From positions 1-39,712 of the IMG/VR virus record IMGVR_UViG_3300023174_000333: DNA of 39,712 nucleotides. The stretch is one strand, 5' to 3'. The notes beneath the pieces were generated by a model that was not told where the DNA came from, did not search any database, and saw nothing but the letters and a program-made list of their open reading frames with translations. The DNA comes from a virus. Position numbers and translations under genes: made by a program. The first letter of the stretch is position 1. Each line of letters opens with the position of its first letter. Below, in pieces: positions 17,986 through 35,928 of the stretch.

Positions 17986-18013
17986 ATTATACTCATAAAT
18001 CTTGGAATGTCAA
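17986..18013 (-). promoter_or_regulatory. Leftward consensus promoter
   Basis: On the - strand TTGACA (18013-18008) and TATAAT (17991-17986) are separated by 16 bp, both perfect matches to primary-sigma elements. Predicted transcription runs through the 17949-17963 inverted repeat to the 54-residue membrane protein. Confidence 0.72.
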
Positions 18014-18027
18014 ATAGTTATAACAAA

Positions 18028-18057
18028 TTGACAGTAACCCAATTCGTACGTTATACT
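18028..18057 (+). promoter_or_regulatory. Rightward replication promoter, probably leaderless
   Basis: TTGACA (18028-18033) and TATACT (18052-18057) with an 18-bp spacer. The expected start of transcription, about 7 bp beyond the -10, coincides with the A of ATG 18064, and there is no ribosome site before it. A leaderless mRNA, common in actinobacteria, is the simplest reading. Confidence 0.72.
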
Positions 18058-18063
18058 TCAATT

Positions 18064-18255
18064 ATGTCTATCGAACTAGAAGAATACACATTACCTGAGC
18101 ATATGTCCTATTCGGCATTCTCAACTTACCTAACCTGTGGCTACCAATACTACCTCGGACGTCTCCTGAACAAGCAGGAATCTCCTTCGGTGTGGTCTGT
18201 TGGTGGCTCTGCATTCCACCTTGCGTGTGAAAACTACGATAAGGAAACACTATGA
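18064..18255 (+). CDS. N-terminal half of Cas4/RecB-like nuclease (split gene)
   Basis: 63 residues, with ATG 18064 chosen because it falls at the predicted transcription start; an earlier ATG at 18007 lies upstream of the promoter. The sequence has the N-terminal signature of Cas4/AddB-like nucleases: SYSAFSTYLTCGYQYYL with Cys25, then GGSAFHLACE with the His52/Glu56 pair. It ends at TGA overlapping the next start (ATGA). The nuclease core and the other three cysteines are in the next ORF, so this half cannot be a complete enzyme. It is a two-subunit protein, a frameshifted single gene, or an assembly error. Confidence 0.75.
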   Translation: MSIELEEYTLPEHMSYSAFSTYLTCGYQYYLGRLLNKQESPSVWSVGGSAFHLACENYDKETL

Positions 18256-18863
18256 GCGTAGATACTTTATGGCAAACGGCTTGGGATGAGTGCAAGGGAG
18301 ACCTTGACCTAACCAACGCTCGTGTGGGTGGCCGTGCAACTAAGGCTAACCCTAACAAGGAAGACCAGACATTCTGGCAAACAGCAGGCCCACGATGGGT
18401 CGAAGGATATATCGCTTGGAGAGAAGCAAACCCTGACTGGAAGATTTGGCGAGCGCCAGATGGCAATCCAGGCATCGAACTTGCCCTGACCCCAGTAGTA
18501 GCGGATGTCCCAGTAAAAATGATTATTGACCGCGTGTTTGAGGTCAACGGACAGTTGGTTATCTGCGACCTTAAAACGTCACAGCAAACTCCATCTAGTA
18601 GTCTCCAACTTGGTTTCTATAAACTCGGGCTAGAACAGACCTTCGGGATAGAAGTTAAGTGGGGAAACTATTATATGGCGCGTGGTAACTCCACGTCAGA
18701 GATGGTAGACCTGTCAGAGTATACTTATGACAAAATGGAATACCTGATAAAACAATTTGACACAGCACGTAAGACTGGTATATTCTTACCCAACACAAAC
18801 AACTGTCAGTATATGTGCGGGTTAACCGAATACTGTCAGTTCTCTACTAAGAAGGATAAATAA
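18252..18863 (+). CDS. C-terminal half of Cas4/RecB-like PD-(D/E)XK nuclease
   Basis: 203 residues. Asp93 (MIIDRVFEV), Asp106-Leu-Lys108 (ICDLKTS) and the QxxxY-type motif near 119-123 (QLGFYKLG) form the PD-(D/E)XK active site of RecB/Cas4 exonucleases. Cys185, Cys189 and Cys195 (NNCQYMCGLTEYC) are three of the four ligands of the iron-sulfur cluster in this family; the fourth is Cys25 of the preceding ORF. It likely processes DNA ends during replication or recombination. It starts at ATG 18252 within an ATGA overlap and has an adjoining frame to the N-terminal half. Confidence 0.82.
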   Translation: MSVDTLWQTAWDECKGDLDLTNARVGGRATKANPNKEDQTFWQTAGPRWVEGYIAWREANPDWKIWRAPDGNPGIELALTPVVADVPVKMIIDRVFEVNGQLVICDLKTSQQTPSSSLQLGFYKLGLEQTFGIEVKWGNYYMARGNSTSEMVDLSEYTYDKMEYLIKQFDTARKTGIFLPNTNNCQYMCGLTEYCQFSTKKDK

Positions 18864-24925: not shown

Positions 24926-25102
24926 TTATCCTCCTGTTGAGTAGAAACCAGTCCCATTAAACTTTACTGGTGCTGCATAGTATACACGCTTCATATCCTC
25001 TTTGCAAGTTTCGCAAATAGGTATGACCTCTGCTTCTGACATAGGACGTTGGACAGATACTTCTAGATTGTCCACATCGCATTTATACTCATACGTTGCC
25101 AC
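24926..25102 (-). CDS. FmdB-like zinc-ribbon protein
   Basis: 58 residues with a GTG start at 25102 behind GGAGG. The start ATYEYKC, a CETC knuckle near 30-33 and the ending RVYYAAPVKFNGTGFYST match the FmdB/zinc_ribbon_8 family of tiny regulators. Cys8 with Cys30/Cys33 leaves one ligand uncertain (a normal member has four). The role is probably a transcription or host-interaction zinc ribbon. It is conserved enough to be confident of coding. Confidence 0.72.
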   Translation of the reverse strand: MATYEYKCDVDNLEVSVQRPMSEAEVIPICETCKEDMKRVYYAAPVKFNGTGFYSTGG

Positions 25103-25105
25103 GTA

Positions 25106-25357
25106 TTACCTCCGCATAGTTTGTGTCGGACGGAGTGTATGATTATCATACAGCCTTTGGCGTTGCTGTGCCATAGCCTCCTGAATACCGACATAGTTAT
25201 CTAGAGATTGGCAAATCTTCTTAGCCAGTTCTCTGCCTTCTAACCTATTATAACCAAAGGTGGCAAGTTTGTCTATTACTTTTTGCACACGAGGCTCTTG
25301 CTTATAAGCATCAGGCCTAAAGACTTGCAACTGGCCCTGTCTGACTCTTGTTATCAT
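25106..25357 (-). CDS. Small basic helical protein
   Basis: 83 residues from ATG 25357, overlapping the previous stop; an upstream TTG would add three residues. It is helical and basic (YKQEPRVQKVIDKL, then ELAKKICQSLDNYV). The C-terminus is encoded across one copy of the 15-bp palindrome (LYDNHT) and one copy of the GTTTGTGTYGG motif (PTQT), at 25137-25151 and 25119-25129. No recognised family. Confidence 0.65.
   Translation of the reverse strand: MITRVRQGQLQVFRPDAYKQEPRVQKVIDKLATFGYNRLEGRELAKKICQSLDNYVGIQEAMAQQRQRLYDNHTLRPTQTMRR
25119..25129 (-). repeat. Motif M copy 1 (GTTTGTGTYGG)
   Basis: GTTTGTGTCGG read on the + strand, inside the coding end of the 83-residue gene, 7 bp from palindrome copy 1. 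Confidence 0.6.
25137..25151. repeat. Palindrome P copy 1
   Basis: GTATGATTATCATAC with T and A flanks (17 bp symmetric). Within the 83-residue gene, encoding YDNHT in the leftward frame. Confidence 0.75.
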
Positions 25358-25737
25358 CAGTACCAACCTTTCCTATTGTGATGGTTCAACGCTTGGCAAG
25401 GTGAGCCATAGCGGTATAGAATATAAGCAAATCCACGCTCAATTTGCCGTGTTGCTGGTGTTTTCGGGTCCATTCCTAGTATCTGAGGTATACCCCCAGC
25501 ATTCTTACCCATTACTTTGACTTTATTATACGCTTCGGGTCTCCAATTGGATTCCTTCTGCCATAACTTTTCCAAGCAGACGAATTGCTTGTCCGTCCAC
25601 GCCAACATTACATCTCTTGCATATGCTTTACTATCTGCAACACCCCACTTATGCGGTTGCTTCGGGGGTTCGTGTCCTGTATGCGTAACTCCGAATAGCA
25701 TAAATAATGCTATCAAGAGTATCAGTATTTTTCTCAC
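25357..25737 (-). CDS. Secreted lysozyme-like (SLT-fold) protein
   Basis: 126 residues with a GTG start (25735-25737) behind AAGGTGG. Residues 1-20 form a signal peptide or N-terminal anchor (KILILLIALFMLFGV). Residues about 50-126 resemble the short actinobacterial transglycosylase-like domain: LWQKESNWRPEAYN provides the catalytic Glu62 and the usual ESxW. AGGIPQILG and the closing GSPCQALNHH also fit. Two cysteines (54 and about 114) could form a disulfide outside the cell. It would cut glycan strands in the wall. Being in the leftward, likely early, block it is unlikely to be the main lysis enzyme. Confidence 0.74.
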   Translation of the reverse strand: MRKILILLIALFMLFGVTHTGHEPPKQPHKWGVADSKAYARDVMLAWTDKQFVCLEKLWQKESNWRPEAYNKVKVMGKNAGGIPQILGMDPKTPATRQIERGFAYILYRYGSPCQALNHHNRKGWY

Positions 25738-25740
25738 GTG

Positions 25741-26079
25741 TTACCACCTTACTAGAGGTATCATCTTATCTGCGAAGTCCATAGCCCGCCCCATATCTGA
25801 TTGCGGCCCATAGTTCTCTCTTGTCCTGTTTAGCATAGCGATTCGCTCGCCAGCAAGTAACCCACCCCAAATACCGTGAGGTAAGTTTTCTGATTTCATT
25901 CCTTCTTCGAGACATCGTTCCTTTGCAGGACACGTATTGCATTGTTCGATAGCATAGGTGATGCTCTGCACCAACTCTGCGCGTCTAGCCATAGAAGGTC
26001 GACCGTTCTCGTTCTCAGGGAACCAGTAATCTGCATTCGGGTCGTTCGTGCAGTTACCTACTAGCGGTTCACTCTTCAT
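25741..26079 (-). CDS. WhiB-family transcriptional regulator
   Basis: 112 residues. The four conserved cysteines Cys10, Cys47, Cys50 and Cys56 (C..C-x2-C-x5-C) would hold a 4Fe-4S cluster, and GIWGG at 69-73 is the signature turn. WhiB proteins are confined to actinobacteria and their phages, where they bind the primary sigma factor and modulate transcription; a phage WhiB in TM4 blocks a host WhiB and septation. The gene starts within the end of the previous one. The C-terminal tail after residue 85 is less basic than in host WhiB proteins. Confidence 0.9.
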   Translation of the reverse strand: MKSEPLVGNCTNDPNADYWFPENENGRPSMARRAELVQSITYAIEQCNTCPAKERCLEEGMKSENLPHGIWGGLLAGERIAMLNRTRENYGPQSDMGRAMDFADKMIPLVRW

Positions 26080-26182
26080 TCATCTCATCCCACATTCGGT
26101 CAGGGTCGTCTTCGAACTCTTCATCGTCGTCGTCCATTCCTAGTGCAAATGGGTCTCCGTCAAGCCACATTGGTTCACTCAT
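26069..26182 (-). CDS. Very acidic 37-residue protein
   Basis: 37 residues from ATG 26182, overlapping the previous stop by 8 bases. Half of the residues are Asp or Glu (MDDDDEEFEDDPDRMWDE). A longer upstream frame would run through the previous gene in another frame and looks like an artefact (poly-Lys/Met). Such short acidic peptides are candidates for DNA-mimic or polymerase-binding proteins; none is recognised. Confidence 0.52.
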   Translation of the reverse strand: MSEPMWLDGDPFALGMDDDDEEFEDDPDRMWDEMNEE

Positions 26183-26375
26183 CTTCTTCATCACCACCAA
26201 TGAACTCATCATCTTCATCGTCTTCTTCTTCGAGTTCTTCAATCGTGATGTCGTCGACCTCGCCAAAGTGCGCATAGTCTTCATACATCCAGCCCTGCTT
26301 CTCTGCTTCTACGTCACTATCGGCTTCTACTTCGTAGAAATAAGTGACTTTCACCTTCACATTATATCTAGCCAT
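26175..26375 (-). CDS. Small protein with acidic tail
   Basis: 66 residues. The first 30 form a beta hairpin-like segment (YNVKVKVTYFYEVEADSD) and the last 22 are almost all acidic (EELEEEDDEDDEF, then GDEEDE). It overlaps both neighbours by 8 bases, typical of coupled translation. A similar design, beta core plus acidic tail, is seen in small host-takeover proteins, but no homology is claimed. Confidence 0.62.
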   Translation of the reverse strand: MARYNVKVKVTYFYEVEADSDVEAEKQGWMYEDYAHFGEVDDITIEELEEEDDEDDEFIGGDEEDE

Positions 26376-26742
26376 TGTATTTATCCTCCAGTATTGAGTC
26401 TAGCACATATTCGAACTCGGGTCTACTTGCCATTTCAGGCTCATCTGTATCCCAAATGATTTCGTATCCGTAACTCTCATCCCATATAAGCCGTCCTGCA
26501 TACAGCACACGAGCACCATTGACTAACTCAAAGTCCTTAGCCCAAGCAGTTTCTCGTCGCAGTCGTTGCTTCACATTGAATGACTCAAGCATCTCATCAA
26601 CTGTTACTTCTCGTTCATCTTCTTGTCCTAGCAGTAATCGTGCATCTGCTATCTTTCTATCTGTATGATAATCATACGCGTTGCCTGATGTGAGTAGGTG
26701 GATGTAATCCAGCACTACTTCACGCACTTTTTCTGTATCCAT
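26368..26742 (-). CDS. Unknown leftward protein (124 residues)
   Basis: 124 residues preceded by a purine-rich AGGGGGTAGAG. It begins with an amphipathic helix (MDTEKVREVVLDYIHLL) and ends in an aromatic acidic part (WDESYGYEIIWDTDEPEM). One palindrome copy (26663-26677, the only copy with the opposite central base) encodes AYDYHT near residue 22. No family recognised. Confidence 0.65.
   Translation of the reverse strand: MDTEKVREVVLDYIHLLTSGNAYDYHTDRKIADARLLLGQEDEREVTVDEMLESFNVKQRLRRETAWAKDFELVNGARVLYAGRLIWDESYGYEIIWDTDEPEMASRPEFEYVLDSILEDKYNG
26663..26677. repeat. Palindrome P copy 2
   Basis: GTATGATAATCATAC, the only copy with A at the centre on the + strand. Inside the 124-residue gene, encoding AYDYHT. 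Confidence 0.75.
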
Positions 26743-26744
26743 CT

Positions 26745-26954
26745 CTACCCCCTGTTGTATGCTGGATAGTATACAGGAACTATCTCAGCGTTGTCAAGTT
26801 TTACAGCCCATTCAAGAGCCTCATCCAACGTCGGGAATGTGCCGTATCGCACAGTCCCTTCATCAGTATCAGTTTCAGTAATGTAGCCCATTACCCACAT
26901 CCCCCACAAGGGTTCTGCTATCTTAATCTCCTTAGAAGTCGAAGTGCTTGTCAT
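26745..26954 (-). CDS. Small alpha/beta protein of unknown function
   Basis: 69 residues if started at ATG 26954, which overlaps the amidotransferase end by 23 bases; a start at 26966 is an alternative. It contains GMWVMGYITETDTDEGTVRYGTF followed by a helix DEALEWAVKL, a compact strand-strand-helix layout. It lies directly after the glutamine amidotransferase and may be its small partner, by position only. Confidence 0.55.
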   Translation of the reverse strand: MTSTSTSKEIKIAEPLWGMWVMGYITETDTDEGTVRYGTFPTLDEALEWAVKLDNAEIVPVYYPAYNRG

Positions 26955-27774
26955 AATACCACGCATTCTGAGGTTTGTGTTGGTCGCGCATCCACTTGCT
27001 ATCGGCTGGCACATAGCACAGGCAACTGTCGCCGTATGACCCTGTGCAGTCGAAGCAGGTGTAGCACATCTCGCAGTAGTAAGGGTTAGCATCCTCAAAT
27101 GCTATCGTCCTACACGACGGACACTCGAAGTCTTCCAAAACTTCCGTATCTGTATGATTATCATACGCCAGCGCCGTCGCACTACTGGGCTTGATGTAAC
27201 TCGACCACGTTGATGGCTTGTATGTATCGTTAGACCACCACATTCCTTCATTATCCCAGTAGCCACTAGACTCGTTGATAATGTAGCATTGGTCGCCAGC
27301 CTTCGGGTCAAGTGTAAGGATAGCAACCTTGCTACCACTAGCCCACTTGCTTACTATCTTCCATACATTGTCGTCGTCAAGGGCTTTGACGCCACCAATA
27401 GTCGGAAGGGTATCCTCTGCAAAGATACGCGTATCGCTACGCTTATCAGTTGCGTGGATTTCTATGTCGAGGATACCATTGTGTGCTAGATAGGTATCAT
27501 CTCTACCACCAACCTTGAAGGGGTGGCAGTTCTCTTCATTCTTTACGCCGTGTGTTGCATATCTAGCGTGGAACATAGCGTAACTATTTGGGTATTCTTT
27601 GCGAACGTCTAAGAACTCCTTAATGATTTTCTTAGCGGACATACCCTTGCCTGTGATAATCTTATCACCAGCAATTACTGCATAGCCAAAGCCGTGTGGA
27701 TTATTACACGAGGCACACTCTAAATCTTTTTTACGAGGAGTAGAGTTGGGAGAGCATACGACCAATAAGCACAT
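26932..27774 (-). CDS. Class II glutamine amidotransferase with zinc-ribbon tail
   Basis: 280 residues. Met-Cys at the N-terminus would expose Cys2 as the Ntn nucleophile. NPHGFG (25-30), HARYATHG (69-76), HPF (84-86) and LAHNG (96-100) are the class II glutaminase motifs that bind glutamine and form the oxyanion hole. The C-terminal 70 residues carry about seven cysteines (CPSC, CEMCYTCFDC, CLC), a probable zinc module not usual in this family. It would release ammonia from glutamine for a ligase, and the gene immediately upstream is an amidoligase. A palindrome copy lies in the 3' part (27152-27166). Confidence 0.84.
   Translation of the reverse strand: MCLLVVCSPNSTPRKKDLECASCNNPHGFGYAVIAGDKIITGKGMSAKKIIKEFLDVRKEYPNSYAMFHARYATHGVKNEENCHPFKVGGRDDTYLAHNGILDIEIHATDKRSDTRIFAEDTLPTIGGVKALDDDNVWKIVSKWASGSKVAILTLDPKAGDQCYIINESSGYWDNEGMWWSNDTYKPSTWSSYIKPSSATALAYDNHTDTEVLEDFECPSCRTIAFEDANPYYCEMCYTCFDCTGSYGDSCLCYVPADSKWMRDQHKPQNAWYYDKHFDF
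26973..26983 (-). repeat. Motif M copy 2
   Basis: GTTTGTGTTGG on the + strand, within the end of the glutamine amidotransferase gene, read in a different codon frame from copy 1. Confidence 0.6.
27152..27166. repeat. Palindrome P copy 3
   Basis: Perfect 15-mer inside the amidotransferase gene, encoding AYDNHT. Confidence 0.75.
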
Positions 27775-27788
27775 AATCTATCCTATCT

Positions 27789-27803
27789 GTATGATTATCA
27801 TAC
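27789..27803. repeat. Palindrome P copy 4
   Basis: Perfect 15-mer spanning the TGA stop of the amidoligase and ending 14 bp before the amidotransferase ATG. Confidence 0.78.
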
Positions 27804-29003
27804 GTTTTGTAGTTGATTAGCAACCTTTGCTAACCTAGCATTGAGTTCGGGATACAGAGCAGCATTGTCCTGTATGTATGAGGTGAAGTTGTCCTGCGAT
27901 AGTGAGCCTTGACGCACATCTCTGACCGACATACCTCTAGTATACTCAACGCTGGCGTGCGCTAAGTCGATGAATGATTTTACTGTTTCGCTATTCACGC
28001 TACTTCTAAAGATACGCATCTCTAGTGTGGCGTGGTTCTGTGTATTGACCGCAGAGTAGCGGTCGCTATTGCGTGAGTTATCTAACTTGTTTTTGAGGTT
28101 ACGTCGCGACTTCCATTCTCGGTTGCCGTCTGCATCCTCTGATACATAGTCAGTATTAGCGTCGTCGAACTTAGCCCAACGGCTAGATGAGCGACCTGCT
28201 ATTGCTTCGTATAGTGTCTGATTATCATACACTAATCGAAGGAAGCGGTGCATATGCGCACCACCATTGAAACCAGCACGTGAGATGTGAATGTGCAAGC
28301 CTGCGGTAGGCGCATCCCACGCTTTTACCTTGATGCCATTCCTGCTTCGTAAGGCTTCGAGGGTATTCCACAATTCGTAGGCTTCGTTCTTGTAAAAATC
28401 GTGGGTCATAGGGTGCGTAACTATCTCAAAGCCACAGTTCAGAGAGCCATCACTCTTGAGATACGCTAGGCTTAGTTGCTCTAGTCTGCTCGCATATTCT
28501 GCGGAGTCAGAGCGATTTTGTCGTGCTTCTACTTCGATTTCTAGCCCGAAGAATAAGCGTTCTTCCTTGTCGGTGGTGTGGAAGATAGGGTCAGGGCGGT
28601 AAGAGTAATCGTGGATTACCCGCGCATCATCTCCGTCGTGGTCGCTACATCCGTGAGCGTAATACGCATCACAGTCCTCGCACCAACTTGTATTGCCTAC
28701 GCAGTCCTCACAGTAGGAATTGTTAGTGTCCTCTGTGTAGTAACTAGAGCCTGTGTGATACTCATTACAATCATCACAATAGTTAGCGTGGTTTTCCATA
28801 CAAGTTTGGCACCACATCTCACTTTGGTCGACGTAATACCAGTCGTCATTTTCCCAACCAGTATCATCACAATGCTCACAGATACGCTTGCAATTTTCAC
28901 AACTCACATCTCCTGAATAAGAGATGAGGTGCGCATCATCTTCGCTAACTTCGGTCATACAACCGCTACAAGTTAGGAGAACGATGTCTTCGTCTGCATC
29001 CAT
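27798..29003 (-). CDS. Amidoligase-like protein with N-terminal Cys clusters
   Basis: 401 residues. Residues 12-119 hold about seven Cys-x2-Cys pairs (12/15, 35/38, 42/45, 65/68, 76/79, 98/101, 108/111), an array of treble-clef or zinc-ribbon knuckles. The C-terminal two thirds match the amidoligase_2 (COOH-NH2 ligase) fold: FFGLEIEVE (151-159), KSDGSL (183-188), GFEIVTHP (191-198), GLHIHIS (235-241). These enzymes are predicted to join carboxyl and amino groups using ATP, sometimes attaching peptide tags or modifying cell-wall peptides. GAAAGGAT precedes the start and a palindrome copy lies 21 bp upstream. The TGA stop is inside another copy (27789-27803). Confidence 0.8.
   Translation of the reverse strand: MDADEDIVLLTCSGCMTEVSEDDAHLISYSGDVSCENCKRICEHCDDTGWENDDWYYVDQSEMWCQTCMENHANYCDDCNEYHTGSSYYTEDTNNSYCEDCVGNTSWCEDCDAYYAHGCSDHDGDDARVIHDYSYRPDPIFHTTDKEERLFFGLEIEVEARQNRSDSAEYASRLEQLSLAYLKSDGSLNCGFEIVTHPMTHDFYKNEAYELWNTLEALRSRNGIKVKAWDAPTAGLHIHISRAGFNGGAHMHRFLRLVYDNQTLYEAIAGRSSSRWAKFDDANTDYVSEDADGNREWKSRRNLKNKLDNSRNSDRYSAVNTQNHATLEMRIFRSSVNSETVKSFIDLAHASVEYTRGMSVRDVRQGSLSQDNFTSYIQDNAALYPELNARLAKVANQLQNV
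28216..28230. repeat. Palindrome P copy 5
   Basis: GTCTGATTATCATAC, one mismatch in one arm. Inside the amidoligase gene, encoding VYDNQT. Confidence 0.65.
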
Positions 29004-29024
29004 AATTTATCCTTTCGATACTCC

Positions 29025-29039
29025 GTATGATTATCATAC
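29025..29039. repeat. Palindrome P copy 6
   Basis: Perfect 15-mer ending 21 bp before the amidoligase start, just upstream of its ribosome site. Confidence 0.78.
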
Positions 29040-29072
29040 GAGAGGCGTTGCTATTTAGTTATAGGTAGAACC

Positions 29073-29258
29073 TTACACTACGGCCTTGCGTAAGTCAAGT
29101 ATCGCGTCAGAAATCTTTGAGCGTAGACTCTCCACCTCAATAACGAGAACCTTGAAATCGTTGCGGCTGTGGATGTCCTGTTGCGCTCGCAACGCCATTC
29201 TAATCACTTCCACTTCACGTGGCGTGAGGTCGAGCAGTAGGTTTGTGTCGGCGCTCAT
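29073..29258 (-). CDS. Small helical protein of unknown function
   Basis: 61 residues, predicted as two helices (TPREVEVIRMALRAQQDI, then LVIEVESLRSKISDAILDL). The start overlaps the previous stop (ATGA). One copy of the GTTTGTGTYGG motif lies across its first codons. Likely a small dimeric coiled-coil protein. Confidence 0.62.
   Translation of the reverse strand: MSADTNLLLDLTPREVEVIRMALRAQQDIHSRNDFKVLVIEVESLRSKISDAILDLRKAVV
29241..29251 (-). repeat. Motif M copy 3
   Basis: GTTTGTGTCGG on the + strand, at the first codons of the 61-residue gene, read in the third codon frame. Confidence 0.6.
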
Positions 29259-29407
29259 TCGTCGTCCTCTTCTGAACCATCCAGCCCGAAGTCTTCCATA
29301 ACTGCCATTACGGCATCATCAAGGTCGGCTATGAGCAGTTCGATTTCGTCAGGGTTCATTGAGCGAACCATTCCAGCGGTGATACTAGACTCCCATACGT
29401 TCTTCAT
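29255..29407 (-). CDS. 50-residue acidic protein
   Basis: 50 residues from ATG 29407 (overlapping the previous stop) to TGA 29255. Acidic, helical (NPDEIELLIADLDDAVMAVMEDFG, shown in part) with an acidic tail GSEEDDE. Overlapping start/stop codons on both sides support it as a real gene of the chain. Unknown function. Confidence 0.58.
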   Translation of the reverse strand: MKNVWESSITAGMVRSMNPDEIELLIADLDDAVMAVMEDFGLDGSEEDDE

Positions 29408-29559
29408 TTCTTCCCCTTCTTACGGATAATCTTAGCGATACGCAAAACAACAACGATACCAACTACCAACAGGATAGTGCGCCAAAAGACATACACATCA
29501 CCGAAGTAGGTTGTAAGGCTGATGCCCCACTTGCTAGCCTCTAGGTTGAACAGTTCCAT
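29404..29559 (-). CDS. 51-residue single-pass membrane protein
   Basis: 51 residues from ATG 29559, preceded by GAAAGGA, with a palindrome copy 24 bp upstream. An amphipathic N-terminus is followed by a transmembrane helix (about 29-45, RTILLVVGIVVVLRIAKI) and a lysine/arginine tail (RKKGKK), implying the tail faces the cytoplasm. An early membrane protein of unknown role. Confidence 0.62.
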   Translation of the reverse strand: MELFNLEASKWGISLTTYFGDVYVFWRTILLVVGIVVVLRIAKIIRKKGKK

Positions 29560-29583
29560 TTCATTTCCTTTCACTAAGTTGCT

Positions 29584-29598
29584 GTATGATTATCATAC
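29584..29598. repeat. Palindrome P copy 7
   Basis: Perfect 15-mer with T/A flanks, 24 bp before the 51-residue membrane protein start and 5 bp from the tRNA-like element. Confidence 0.78.
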
Positions 29599-29603
29599 AA
29601 CGT

Positions 29604-29647
29604 GCCTATCGTGAGAATCGAACTCACGACTATGCGCCAGCATAGGC
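29604..29647 (-). other. tRNA-like acceptor/T-arm remnant
   Basis: On the - strand a GCCTAT stem (29647-29642) pairs with ATAGGC (29609-29604). Next to the 3' strand is a perfect T arm: GTGAG-TTCGATT-CTCAC (29627-29611). D and anticodon arms are absent, only about 13 nt lie between, and CCA is not encoded. It could be a decayed tRNA, an attP core derived from the 3' end of a host tRNA, or a tRNA mimic. It lies between two leftward genes just upstream of palindrome copy 7. Confidence 0.55.
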
Positions 29648-29659
29648 TACCAGATGGTA

Positions 29660-29851
29660 TTACTCAGCCCACTCCGAGTATTCGTCATCTTCGGTTTCCA
29701 GTAAGATTTCATCAAGGGAGATGTCTACGCCGTAAGCATCTTCCTCTAGTAGGATTTCTGCTAGTTCTTCATCTGTAAAGATGTCGTGGGCAATTTCTAA
29801 CGCCTCTAAGTCTAGGTCGCTATCGTGCATTTTCTTACTCCATTCACTCAT
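29660..29851 (-). CDS. Acidic 63-residue protein
   Basis: 63 residues, with about 40% Asp/Glu (ALEIAHDIFTDEELAEILLE, shown in part; ending ETEDDEYSEWAE). The start overlaps the previous stop by 8 bases. Helical and acidic; another candidate small host-interaction protein. No family recognised. Confidence 0.62.
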   Translation of the reverse strand: MSEWSKKMHDSDLDLEALEIAHDIFTDEELAEILLEEDAYGVDISLDEILLETEDDEYSEWAE

Positions 29852-29996
29852 AGGTTTGCGCCCTGTCTAGGGCTTGGATACCGCGAAGGCGCATAGCCTC
29901 TTTGGCCTTTACTTCATCATCATTGTTCTTGATGATTTCTGCTCTGATAGCACCACGCGCTTCGGCGATAAGTGCTTCCATTTCGTCTAACTTCAT
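29844..29996 (-). CDS. 50-residue helical protein, first gene after twin promoters
   Basis: 50 residues from ATG 29996 with GAAAGGAT 7 nt upstream. A longer frame upstream would start in the palindrome and is unnecessary. The sequence is one long charged helix (MKLDEMEALIAEARGAI, then DEVKAKEAMRLRGIQAL). It is the first gene downstream of the leftward promoters at 30071 and 30173, and palindrome copy 8 sits 25 bp upstream of the start. Confidence 0.62.
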   Translation of the reverse strand: MKLDEMEALIAEARGAIRAEIIKNNDDEVKAKEAMRLRGIQALDRAQTYE

Positions 29997-30021
29997 TGTG
30001 CTATCCTTTCGTTTAGAGCCT

Positions 30022-30036
30022 GTATGATTATCATAC
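30022..30036. repeat. Palindrome P copy 8
   Basis: Perfect 15-mer with T/A flanks, 25 bp before the 50-residue gene start. Copies 8, 9 and 10 are spaced 100 and 102 bp. Confidence 0.78.
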
Positions 30037-30070
30037 AAGGCTTACTGCGTAGTGCAACCTTCATACTCTA

Positions 30071-30099
30071 AGAGTAGTCTAGCCCCACCTAGAAGTCAA
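30071..30099 (-). promoter_or_regulatory. Leftward promoter A
   Basis: On the - strand TTGACT (30099-30094), 17 bp spacer, TACTCT (30076-30071). A 13-bp palindrome (TACTCT-A-AGAGTA, 30064-30076) overlaps the -10. Palindrome copy 9 is centred about 65 bp upstream of the predicted transcription start. Confidence 0.62.
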
Positions 30100-30121
30100 G
30101 TTCTGCGGGAAACTATTTCCT

Positions 30122-30136
30122 GTATGATTATCATAC
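30122..30136. repeat. Palindrome P copy 9
   Basis: Perfect 15-mer with T/A flanks, 22 bp upstream of the -35 of promoter A. Confidence 0.78.
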
Positions 30137-30172
30137 ACGCTTTCGGCTTCGCTTTCCTAACTTCATAAGACT

Positions 30173-30201
30173 AATCTACCCTATCGCCAGCCATAAGGCA
30201 A
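30173..30201 (-). promoter_or_regulatory. Leftward promoter B
   Basis: On the - strand TTGCCT (30201-30196), 17 bp spacer, TAGATT (30178-30173). Palindrome copy 10 lies 22 bp upstream of the -35, exactly the same offset as copy 9 from promoter A. Confidence 0.55.
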
Positions 30202-30223
30202 GTATCGCCAGCATTTATTTTCC

Positions 30224-30238
30224 GTATGATTATCATAC
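30224..30238. repeat. Palindrome P copy 10
   Basis: Perfect 15-mer, 22 bp upstream of the -35 of promoter B. Confidence 0.78.
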
Positions 30239-30295
30239 AGAAGCCACGCGAGCGCCACAGGGTGCGCCTCAGATGCGCCACGCTGCGCAGCAAAA

Positions 30296-30316
30296 GTTTG
30301 TGTTGGTTTGTGTCGG
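30296..30316 (-). repeat. Motif M copies 4 and 5, overlapping tandem
   Basis: GTTTGTGTTGG directly followed, with a shared G, by a second unit ending TCGG. Located between palindrome copy 10 and the terminator. Confidence 0.65.
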
Positions 30317-30332
30317 CCGATTTTCGGGCGCG

Positions 30333-30362
30333 AAAAAACCCCCGCCGATTTCTCGGCGAGGG
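30333..30362 (-). terminator. Strong intrinsic terminator of the 208-residue gene
   Basis: On the - strand a 10-bp stem (CCCTCGCCGA with TCGGCGGGGG, one T-G pair), a GAAA tetraloop and TTTTTT. This separates the 208-residue gene's transcript from the promoters A and B that start the rest of the leftward block. Confidence 0.85.
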
Positions 30363-30375
30363 CTTTCGGTTCGGG

Positions 30376-31002
30376 TTAGTTCTTTACCATTGAGCGCTTA
30401 GCAACGGGAACCAAGACCTCAAGCAACGCGGTGAGCGTTTGCAGGTCTGATGTCTTGAGTTCTTTTAGGTTCTTGAGAGTGCGAACCTCAAGCAAGGCTT
30501 GAGATACGATAGACTCAATGGATTTTGTGGCTACCTTTTCGCTTTTCGCGTTGGTTCGGGATTTTGTTTGTGTTGGTGCGATTTTCTCAAGGTCTGCAAC
30601 TGTCGCGCATTTTGCAACGGCCTCGGCGTATCCCTCGGCGCCGATTTCTCGGCCTACGCGCTCGGATAGTTTGAGCAGGTCTGAAACTGTTTTTGCCTCG
30701 GCGTCTGAAATCTTGCTAACGATTTCGGAGAAAATCGGGAACCATTGGACGTGTGATTTTCTAAGCGTTGGGGCATTTCCATTTTTAGATGCCTCGGCGA
30801 TAGATGCCTGAACTGTGCGAATTGTGGTCTTGCCAGTTTTTAGCATTTCGGCGATTTCTAAGACGAACTCAATTTCGCCATTGTGATTTATGAGGTTTGA
30901 GTAAGCGGTAACGATTTCAGCCATTGGAACTATCTCGGTCTTTTCTACCTTGATTTTTGCAGGTGCTGAATTGTTAGTTGTTTTCACTGTTTTTTGAGCC
31001 AT
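30376..31002 (-). CDS. Unknown 208-residue leftward protein with its own promoter and terminator
   Basis: 208 residues, helical, rich in Lys/Glu/Ala/Thr. It has a basic N-terminus (KTVKTTNNSAPAKIKVEK), a central helical region (KTTIRTVQASIAEASKNG could be the second half of a helix-turn-helix) and a C-terminal helix (LKTSDLQTLTALLEVLV). No family is recognised. It is a monocistronic unit with an extended -10 promoter flanked by two CCAA-N5-TTGG operators and a strong terminator. Monocistronic, operator-controlled and lying at the origin side, it is a reasonable candidate for an autoregulator or replication initiator; this is inference. Confidence 0.68.
   Translation of the reverse strand: MAQKTVKTTNNSAPAKIKVEKTEIVPMAEIVTAYSNLINHNGEIEFVLEIAEMLKTGKTTIRTVQASIAEASKNGNAPTLRKSHVQWFPIFSEIVSKISDAEAKTVSDLLKLSERVGREIGAEGYAEAVAKCATVADLEKIAPTQTKSRTNAKSEKVATKSIESIVSQALLEVRTLKNLKELKTSDLQTLTALLEVLVPVAKRSMVKN
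30566..30576 (-). repeat. Motif M copy 6
   Basis: GTTTGTGTTGG on the + strand inside the 208-residue gene (encodes PTQT). Confidence 0.6.
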
Positions 31003-31033
31003 TTTTTATTTTCCATTTCTAGTGGGTTTTACC

Positions 31034-31054
31034 TGAACCAAGCGGTTTGGTTCA
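31034..31054. promoter_or_regulatory. Operator O1 (CCAA-N5-TTGG type)
   Basis: Perfect 8-bp arms TGAACCAA and TTGGTTCA around GCGGT. It lies between the predicted transcription start and the ATG of the 208-residue gene. It shares the core CCAAGCNNTTTGG with O2, 39 bp away centre to centre. Confidence 0.65.
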
Positions 31055-31062
31055 TTGAGATA

Positions 31063-31071
31063 AAGATACCA
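31063..31071 (-). promoter_or_regulatory. Extended -10 promoter of the 208-residue gene
   Basis: On the - strand TGGTATCTT (TGn followed by TATCTT). A good -35 is absent at the usual place, which suits an extended -10 type. It is bracketed by O1 downstream and O2 upstream, so a protein bound to both could repress it. Confidence 0.5.
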
Positions 31072-31075
31072 GTTC

Positions 31076-31090
31076 GCCAAGCATTTTGGC
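31076..31090. promoter_or_regulatory. Operator O2 (CCAA-N5-TTGG type)
   Basis: GCCAA-GCATT-TTGGC, 5-bp arms with the same 5-bp spacing as O1 and 11 of 13 identical core bases. It overlaps the -35 side of the promoter. Confidence 0.6.
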
Positions 31091-31120
31091 ACCATTTCGG
31101 GAAATTATTTTTTGGGGTTT

Positions 31121-31135
31121 GTATGATTATCATAC
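31121..31135. repeat. Palindrome P copy 11
   Basis: Perfect 15-mer at the outer edge of the 208-residue gene's control region, centre about 72 bp upstream of its predicted transcription start. Confidence 0.75.
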
Positions 31136-35358: not shown

Positions 35359-35928
35359 ATGACAACACTAGTAGCGATTCAAGGTGATGGCTGGTCCGTG
35401 TTGGGTTGTGACTCACGCTCTAGTGATGAGAGTGGCCGTCCAATAAATATGGCCACACATAAAATTATAGAAAACAACGGAATTCTTATTGCAGGTTCTG
35501 GTGCAGGTCGTGGTTCTAATATTTTGCAATTTGGTTGGAAAGCACCTAAGCCTACAGCCTCAGAAGATTTAGATGTATTTATAACTCAGAAATTTATTCC
35601 ATTAATGCGACAAGCATTTGTTGATGCTGGTTATGATATGAAAGAGGACGGGGATGCAGCAGCGCACGATTCATCCTTTCTTGTCAGCGTTCGCGGAGTT
35701 ATTTATCCTATCTTTGAAGATTATTCTTGGGATAGGGATATTCGTGGCATCTACTATTCTGGCAGTGGTGGTGATGTTGCCCTTGGTGCTCTTGCAGCAG
35801 CCAACGTTAAAGCGCTTACTAAACCCGAATCGGTAGAAAAAGCAGTACGTAAAGCAATTCAAATTGCTGCGCAATGGGATATCTACACAGCAGAACCAAT
35901 TATAACTAAAATTCAGTATACTAAGTAG
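35359..35928 (+). CDS. Proteasome/HslV-like N-terminal-threonine protease
   Basis: 189 residues starting MTTLVAIQGDGW. Removal of Met exposes Thr1. Asp17 (LGCDSR) falls exactly at the family position. A Lys at 34 (THKII) is within one residue of Lys33. YYSGSGGDVALGAL matches the Ser/Gly129 loop of proteasome beta subunits, and AAQWDIYT matches the Asp166 helix and the HslV IYT segment. These are the catalytic elements of the T1 Ntn-hydrolase family. The position after the portal is that of the prohead protease in most phages. AGGGGAC precedes the start. Confidence 0.8.
   Translation: MTTLVAIQGDGWSVLGCDSRSSDESGRPINMATHKIIENNGILIAGSGAGRGSNILQFGWKAPKPTASEDLDVFITQKFIPLMRQAFVDAGYDMKEDGDAAAHDSSFLVSVRGVIYPIFEDYSWDRDIRGIYYSGSGGDVALGALAAANVKALTKPESVEKAVRKAIQIAAQWDIYTAEPIITKIQYTK

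Follow-up and report, generated by a model that had tools for sequence, protein, structure and literature searches.

Pairs of genes encoding an amidoligase and a class II glutamine amidotransferase, or glutaminase, occur in unrelated phages, having been noted in UFV-P2/LUZ24-like phages (PMC3890496), in phage tf (PMC3517423), in the Methylophilales phages MEP401/402 (PMC10580990) and, as an amidoligase plus a glutaminase, in Phage-ZRK32 (PMC10945688); none of these four papers demonstrates a function or target for the pair. For phiEco32, PMC10580990 refers to Iyer et al. (2009), and for Mycobacterium phage Marvin, the annotation of which also records such a pair, to Mageeney et al. (2012). In the LUZ24-like phages, of the type treated by Iyer et al. 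(2009), the amidoligase adjoins the glutaminase in an early block (gp16-gp22) that additionally encodes a COOH-NH2 ligase, a RimK-type ATP-grasp protein and a gamma-glutamyl cyclotransferase. Their amidoligase is devoid of a cysteine array, and the C-terminus of their glutaminase features only two CxxC pairs.

The window analyzed here, by which we mean the whole 39,712-nt stretch, shares with the LUZ24/phiEco32 type an amidoligase gene (AL) directly adjoining a glutaminase gene (GAT), in a leftward gene block whose regulatory sites suggest that it, too, is an early block (Table 1). Unlike the LUZ24-like phages, it appears to carry the bare pair: searches of the 39.7-kb record, which may be incomplete, return no RimK ATP-grasp or gamma-glutamyl cyclotransferase match where the controls are positive, and the COOH-NH2 ligase family PF14395 is matched neither in this record nor in any control genome. 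The closest described counterpart is gp105/gp106 of Marvin (cluster S), an orthologous pair in the same order, with hhalign E-values of 8e-35 for the ligase domain of AL and 2e-38 for GAT. Marvin gp106 keeps the C-terminal cysteine module of GAT, and its amidoligase likewise has N-terminal cysteine fingers, albeit in a shorter array (7 N-terminal Cys) and with an extra C-terminal region. The initial annotation of this locus held that phage pairs with such zinc arrays are little described; given the pairs known from LUZ24-like phages, tf, MEP401/402 and Marvin, the last with smaller cysteine modules, this cannot be maintained. The pair itself is already known, and its zinc-rich two-gene form is a variant, real and well conserved, of that known enzyme pair.

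Table 1. Positions of the features discussed, numbered along the window.
Feature	Positions	Strand	Evidence
AL, amidoligase with N-terminal cysteine array, 401 aa	27798..29003	-	PF12224, fold, model
AL residues 12-119, tandem zinc-finger array, LIM-like spacing	28647..28970	-	15 invariant Cys, Foldseek
AL residues 145-401, GS-like ligase domain	27801..28571	-	invariant residues, model, motif comparison
GAT, class II glutamine amidotransferase (glutaminase), 280 aa	26932..27774	-	Pfam, fold, invariant residues
GAT residues 218-253, C-terminal Cys module CxxC-x12-CxxC-xx-CxxC-x7-CxC	27016..27123	-	invariant Cys
up61, 61-aa protein, gene 5' of and adjoining AL	29073..29258	-	homologue or comparable small ORF in almost every testable relative
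208-aa protein, no known family, first gene of leftward block, likely palindrome-binding regulator	30376..31002	-	co-divergence with palindrome
Palindrome copy	25137..25151	.	repeat search
Palindrome copy	26663..26677	.	repeat search
Palindrome copy within GAT	27152..27166	.	repeat search
Palindrome, AL-GAT junction, upstream of GAT start	27789..27803	.	repeat search
Imperfect palindrome within AL, one mismatch	28217..28229	.	repeat search
Palindrome GTATGATTATCATAC, upstream of AL start	29025..29039	.	repeat search
Palindrome copy	29584..29598	.	repeat search
Palindrome copy	30022..30036	.	repeat search
Palindrome copy	30122..30136	.	repeat search
Palindrome copy	30224..30238	.	repeat search
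Palindrome copy upstream of 208-aa gene	31121..31135	.	repeat search

The source record is a virus contig that encodes a WhiB protein, and among phages only OX376640/1 match it closely at the DNA level, OX376640 being LanE43-AprE7. Phages E7 and F5 infect Ca. Planktophila (PMC10202952), and the host of the window phage is probably a freshwater member of the Actinomycetota. Neither AL, GAT nor up61 is detected in E7 by HMM, nor AL or GAT in F5 by tblastn, and RNA-family and tRNA searches of the window find none. Elsewhere in the window, a Ntn/HslV-like protein that starts M-T-T (35359-35928; PF00227, E 1e-4, and HslV models) is encoded between the portal and a gene for a structural protein, where a prohead protease is usually found, and a PD-(D/E)XK nuclease domain (18007-18863) is split over the overlapping ORFs 18007-18255 and 18252-18863, which could be explained by two separate genes, by programmed frameshifting or by an error. 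The leftward block also encodes an FmdB-family zinc ribbon protein (24926-25102).

AL scores 37.5 bits against the Amidoligase_2 profile (PF12224; curated cut-off 22), which also matches 53 of 53 relatives (E <= 0.01) that are 48-86% identical to it. Both motifs on which the initial annotation founded its amidoligase call, FFGLEIEVE and GLHIHIS, are found in the protein, and the structure predicted from the 53 sequences (pLDDT 87) agrees with that call. Residues 145-401 of the model superpose on YbdK (1r8g; Z 12.2, rmsd 4.0, 221 aligned) and on glutamine synthetase (GS; Z 12.2, rmsd 3.5, 188 aligned; synthetases score about 12), and Dop and PafA are likewise among its Foldseek matches. YbdK, GS and PafA/Dop have the same ligase fold as AL, at a great distance in sequence; to our knowledge, none of them carries a zinc array or has a partner glutaminase. 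Invariant across the 53 ligase domains are E155/E157/E159, K183, D185, E193, H237/H239, R315 and E328/R330, among which E155xE157, H237xH239 and E328xR330 correspond to FGPEPE, GMHCHMS and EVRF of GS (E. coli GlnA) and to LGIELE, QHVHV and EVRV of E. coli YbdK. This mapping rests on the fold and on the identity and order of short motifs, and hhalign of the AL profile to the single GlnA and YbdK sequences gives no significant alignment. With the expected motifs present and invariant, the metal/ATP site is, as judged from the sequence, complete, and the loss of ATP-binding residues that the initial annotation named as telling against an amidoligase is not what one sees. A scan of a genome collection with two AL patterns yields 15 pattern matches and 0 relatives, with no chromosomal homologue seen; a PDB sequence search with AL returns kinase matches by chance only, and in PADLOC neither AL, GAT nor up61 matches a defence family.

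The assignment of GAT as a class II glutaminase has held up equally well. The protein opens with Met-Cys and contains HARYATHG and LAHNG, as first noted along with its cysteine cluster, and across 50 sequences C2, H69-A70-R71, A73-T74-H75-G76, L96-A97-H98-N99-G100 and also D114 are invariant. We take C2 to be the nucleophile and R71, N99-G100 and D114 to bind glutamine, roles assigned from what is known of GlmS. The window protein itself falls just below the Pfam cut-offs (GATase_4, its top family, 22.7 vs 23 bits; GATase_6, 23 vs 27; E 5e-5), and these two profiles match 50/50 of its relatives; the nearest NCBIfam models are those of GlmS and PurF. Its structure model (pLDDT 75, weaker toward the C-terminus) adopts the Ntn glutaminase fold, with Z 13.5, rmsd 4.0 and 179 aligned residues against the GlmS glutaminase (1xff), and Z 12.5 against EgtC.

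The cysteine array of AL consists of the seven CxxC pairs initially reported plus C119 (C12, 15, 35, 38, 42, 45, 65, 68, 76, 79, 98, 101, 108, 111 and 119), all 15 of which are invariant across the 53 sequences. The spacing of its first part, C-x2-C-x19-C-x2-C-x3-C-x2-C-x19-C-x2-C, resembles a LIM pair, and is followed by C-x2-C-x18-C-x2-C-x6-C-x2-C-x7-C. Foldseek gives weak PDB matches of the model to the LIM proteins LMO2 (2xjy, E 8.5e-3), FHL1 (2cup) and Lhx3 (2rgt). Because the LIM profile PF00412 finds no match in AL at E <= 1, we call the array LIM-like rather than a LIM domain; a PDB sequence search with the array alone likewise yields nothing significant. The eight C-terminal cysteines of GAT (C218, 221, 234, 237, 240, 243, 251 and 253) are invariant in the 50 sequences, in a low-confidence part of the model. 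Both modules would be expected to bind zinc. LIM modules usually bind protein, and the proposal that these modules might engage nucleic acid or a host protein fares accordingly: the zinc-type, LIM-like character stands, and we found no support for the array as a nucleic-acid binder, the spacing and the weak fold matches pointing to LIM-like modules instead. Array size differs among relatives. As in the window, AL and GAT are adjacent in MEP401/402 and in Caudoviricetes MW202733, where the amidoligase has either one finger (MEP401) or a multi-finger array similar to that of the window (MW202733), and the glutaminase of both is without the module; LUZ24 lacks the array altogether. It follows that the array has been added to a shared AL-GAT core, as would befit a role in targeting. 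A strict docking code between AL array and GAT module is not supported, MW202733 having the one without the other.

The two genes are strictly paired. Among 97 distinct IMG/VR contigs (80 GAT loci plus further AL loci), AL and GAT are adjacent in 92/92 that have both, always in the order AL then GAT and separated by -80 to +37 nt; each of the 5 contigs with one gene only is cut at a contig end. A terminase-anchored census avoids selection on AL or GAT, and 18 of its 80 loci reach 7 kb or more on the side in question; these comprise 16 with both genes, 2 (L219 and L220) with neither, and 0 with one alone. AL and GAT are thus gained or lost together, and the rarity of adjacency in relatives that the initial annotation named as refuting its reading is not what one sees. 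The pair is also retained in Marvin, MEP401, MW202733 and, more distantly, LUZ24. The amidoligase of Clostridioides phage AR1086-1 has no neighbouring glutaminase, so a GAT is not obligatory for the amidoligase family. Upstream of AL, phmmer finds a up61 homologue in 77 of the 81 loci that can be tested, and 3 of the remaining 4 show a comparable small ORF; up61 has no match in L219 or L220, nor is a homologue detectable in Marvin. Its only well-kept acidic residues are D55 (95%) and E15 (91%), and its candidacy as a Pup-like substrate of AL is unsupported, as the C-terminus is not conserved. Near the position of the 208-aa gene, L219 and L220 have a SprT-like metalloprotease gene, with a HETAH motif by eye.

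The families and folds, the intact active-site motifs, the invariant cysteines and the strict pairing together suggest, with a probability of roughly 0.6, that AL and GAT are the two subunits of a glutamine-dependent amidoligase whose reaction, during infection, alters a macromolecule of the host or the phage. Upon removal of the initiator Met, the N-terminal Cys of GAT would serve as the nucleophile for hydrolysis of glutamine to glutamate and ammonia, and AL, with its GS-like fold and Mg-ATP, would convert a target carboxylate into an acyl phosphate, which the ammonia would then attack to leave an amide on the target. The LIM-like fingers of AL and the smaller cysteine module of GAT would dock the target and/or join the subunits, with both proteins presumably produced together with the leftward regulatory block. 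That the target is a protein can be put forward only tentatively, and as a candidate we rank it somewhat ahead of a peptidoglycan stem peptide. Weighing against an amidoligase are the class II fold that GAT has in common with EgtC-type hydrolases, the non-significance of the alignment when AL is compared with GS or YbdK by sequence profile alone, the solitary amidoligase of AR1086-1 and the low-confidence modeling of the GAT cysteine module.

The first of these points leads to the main rival reading, distinctly unlikely in our estimation, in which AL, as a YbdK/GshA-type ligase, would couple an amine with glutamate or some other amino acid and GAT would be an EgtC-like gamma-glutamyl amide hydrolase, so that a peptide or metabolite would have a glutamyl group added and removed or trimmed by the pair. 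Fold comparison hardly separates this from amidation, YbdK being level with GS as the best match to AL and EgtC nearly tied with GlmS as that to GAT; GATase_4 as top Pfam family and the company of RimK, a COOH-NH2 ligase and a gamma-glutamyl cyclotransferase around the LUZ24 pair are also in its favor. The RimK and cyclotransferase domains are, however, those that the window record does not reveal with working controls, and the NCBIfam models nearest to GAT are those of GlmS and PurF. A role as auxiliary metabolic genes, supplying free amides to the host for nitrogen or amino-acid metabolism, seems very unlikely, with fifteen invariant array cysteines a better match for a macromolecular target than for a small metabolite. 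Such a role has been proposed for Phage-ZRK32, which has an amidoligase, a GAT, a glutathione synthase and a gamma-glutamylcyclotransferase, but the growth effect of that phage is not linked to its amidoligase and GAT genes (PMC10945688).

The peptidoglycan variant is a special case of the glutamine-dependent amidoligase, and an unlikely one: stem-peptide carboxylates (D-isoglutamate or diaminopimelate) would be amidated, altering lysis or excluding later phages, by analogy with AsnB-type enzymes or with MurT/GatD, although GatD is a class I GAT. Binding of wall precursors is not known for LIM-like arrays, and AL and GAT feature no visible wall-targeting domain. Glutamine-dependent amidation of peptidoglycan does exist in bacteria in the form of MurT-GatD, but MurT resembles Mur ligases (PMC3267633), and the folds of both subunits differ from those of AL and GAT. 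An anti-superinfection modification of the wall was proposed for phiEco32 by Iyer et al. (2009), as cited by PMC10580990. Wall amidation and a metabolic role are, on balance, less supported. The form seen in the window is a bare two-gene core plus a large zinc-type array; most phages of this freshwater group retain it, and the culturable mycobacteriophage Marvin has an ortholog, which makes it a good form to test.

The palindrome that AL and GAT were initially said to share is real, with copies upstream of both starts, but it is not private to them. GTATGAT(T/A)ATCATAC occurs in 10 exact copies plus one near-copy within 25137-31135, and its 13-base core gives 23 strand-matches vs 1.4 expected, a number attained in 0/100 shuffles. 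Each of 78 relative genomes has at least 5 copies of a palindrome of its own at corresponding places, for 33 consensus strings overall, some of which are trimmed forms of one another; a copy lies at the AL start in 72/78 and within 60 nt of the GAT start in 48/78. The palindrome is a block-wide family of sites, and no such repeat is found in L219, L220 or E7. Several odd-length types contain TATAAT, which hints at overlap with promoters.

The protein that varies with these sites is the 208-aa product of the first gene of the block, for which Pfam and PHROG searches give no family at a meaningful E-value. Its mean identity is 65.5% between genomes with the same palindrome vs 12.3% otherwise, the largest gap among the gene families of the block area, and where AL is 70-100% identical it is 79.5% identical in pairs that share a palindrome and about 35% in pairs that differ. 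Genomes L106 and L110 are a case in point: AL is 95% identical and the 208-aa protein 36%, with different palindromes at equivalent sites (-606/-604 and 1206/1206 from the AL start). Once AL identity is corrected for, genomes with the same palindrome show an excess of 24.3 points in this protein vs 0.1 in GAT, 2.4 in the ORF at the WhiB position, 7.7 in that at the sigma position and 8.8 in up61. Of 2000 permutations 0 reach the value of 24.3; as free permutation leaves some relatedness in place, we give the control genes equal weight. Since the 208-aa protein and the palindrome diverge in parallel, regardless of the other genes, the protein is probably a regulator that binds the palindromes as operators.

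We consider it probable that a new type of regulator of about 208 aa binds about 10 dispersed palindromic operators at fixed places in the block, and that among freshwater actinophages the regulator and all its operators have on many occasions changed specificity in concert, the intervening genes staying as they were; that this system also holds AL-GAT in its regulon is to us an even call. Within that regulon, our proposed reading of AL-GAT is that of a zinc-finger-guided enzyme amidating a chosen host macromolecule. The link between palindrome and regulator is more surprising than the enzyme pair itself, and provides a test case for how a phage changes the specificity of one regulator and about 10 separate sites at once. 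The nearest known parallel is the stoperator/immunity-repressor system of cluster A mycobacteriophages, in which many dispersed sites answer to one phage regulator (PMC9283540, PMC6550527), as is proposed here. Cluster A stoperators are asymmetric (PMC9283540), whereas the sites in the window are palindromic and found in one gene block, and the candidate regulator, of no known family, is recognized by its co-divergence with them.
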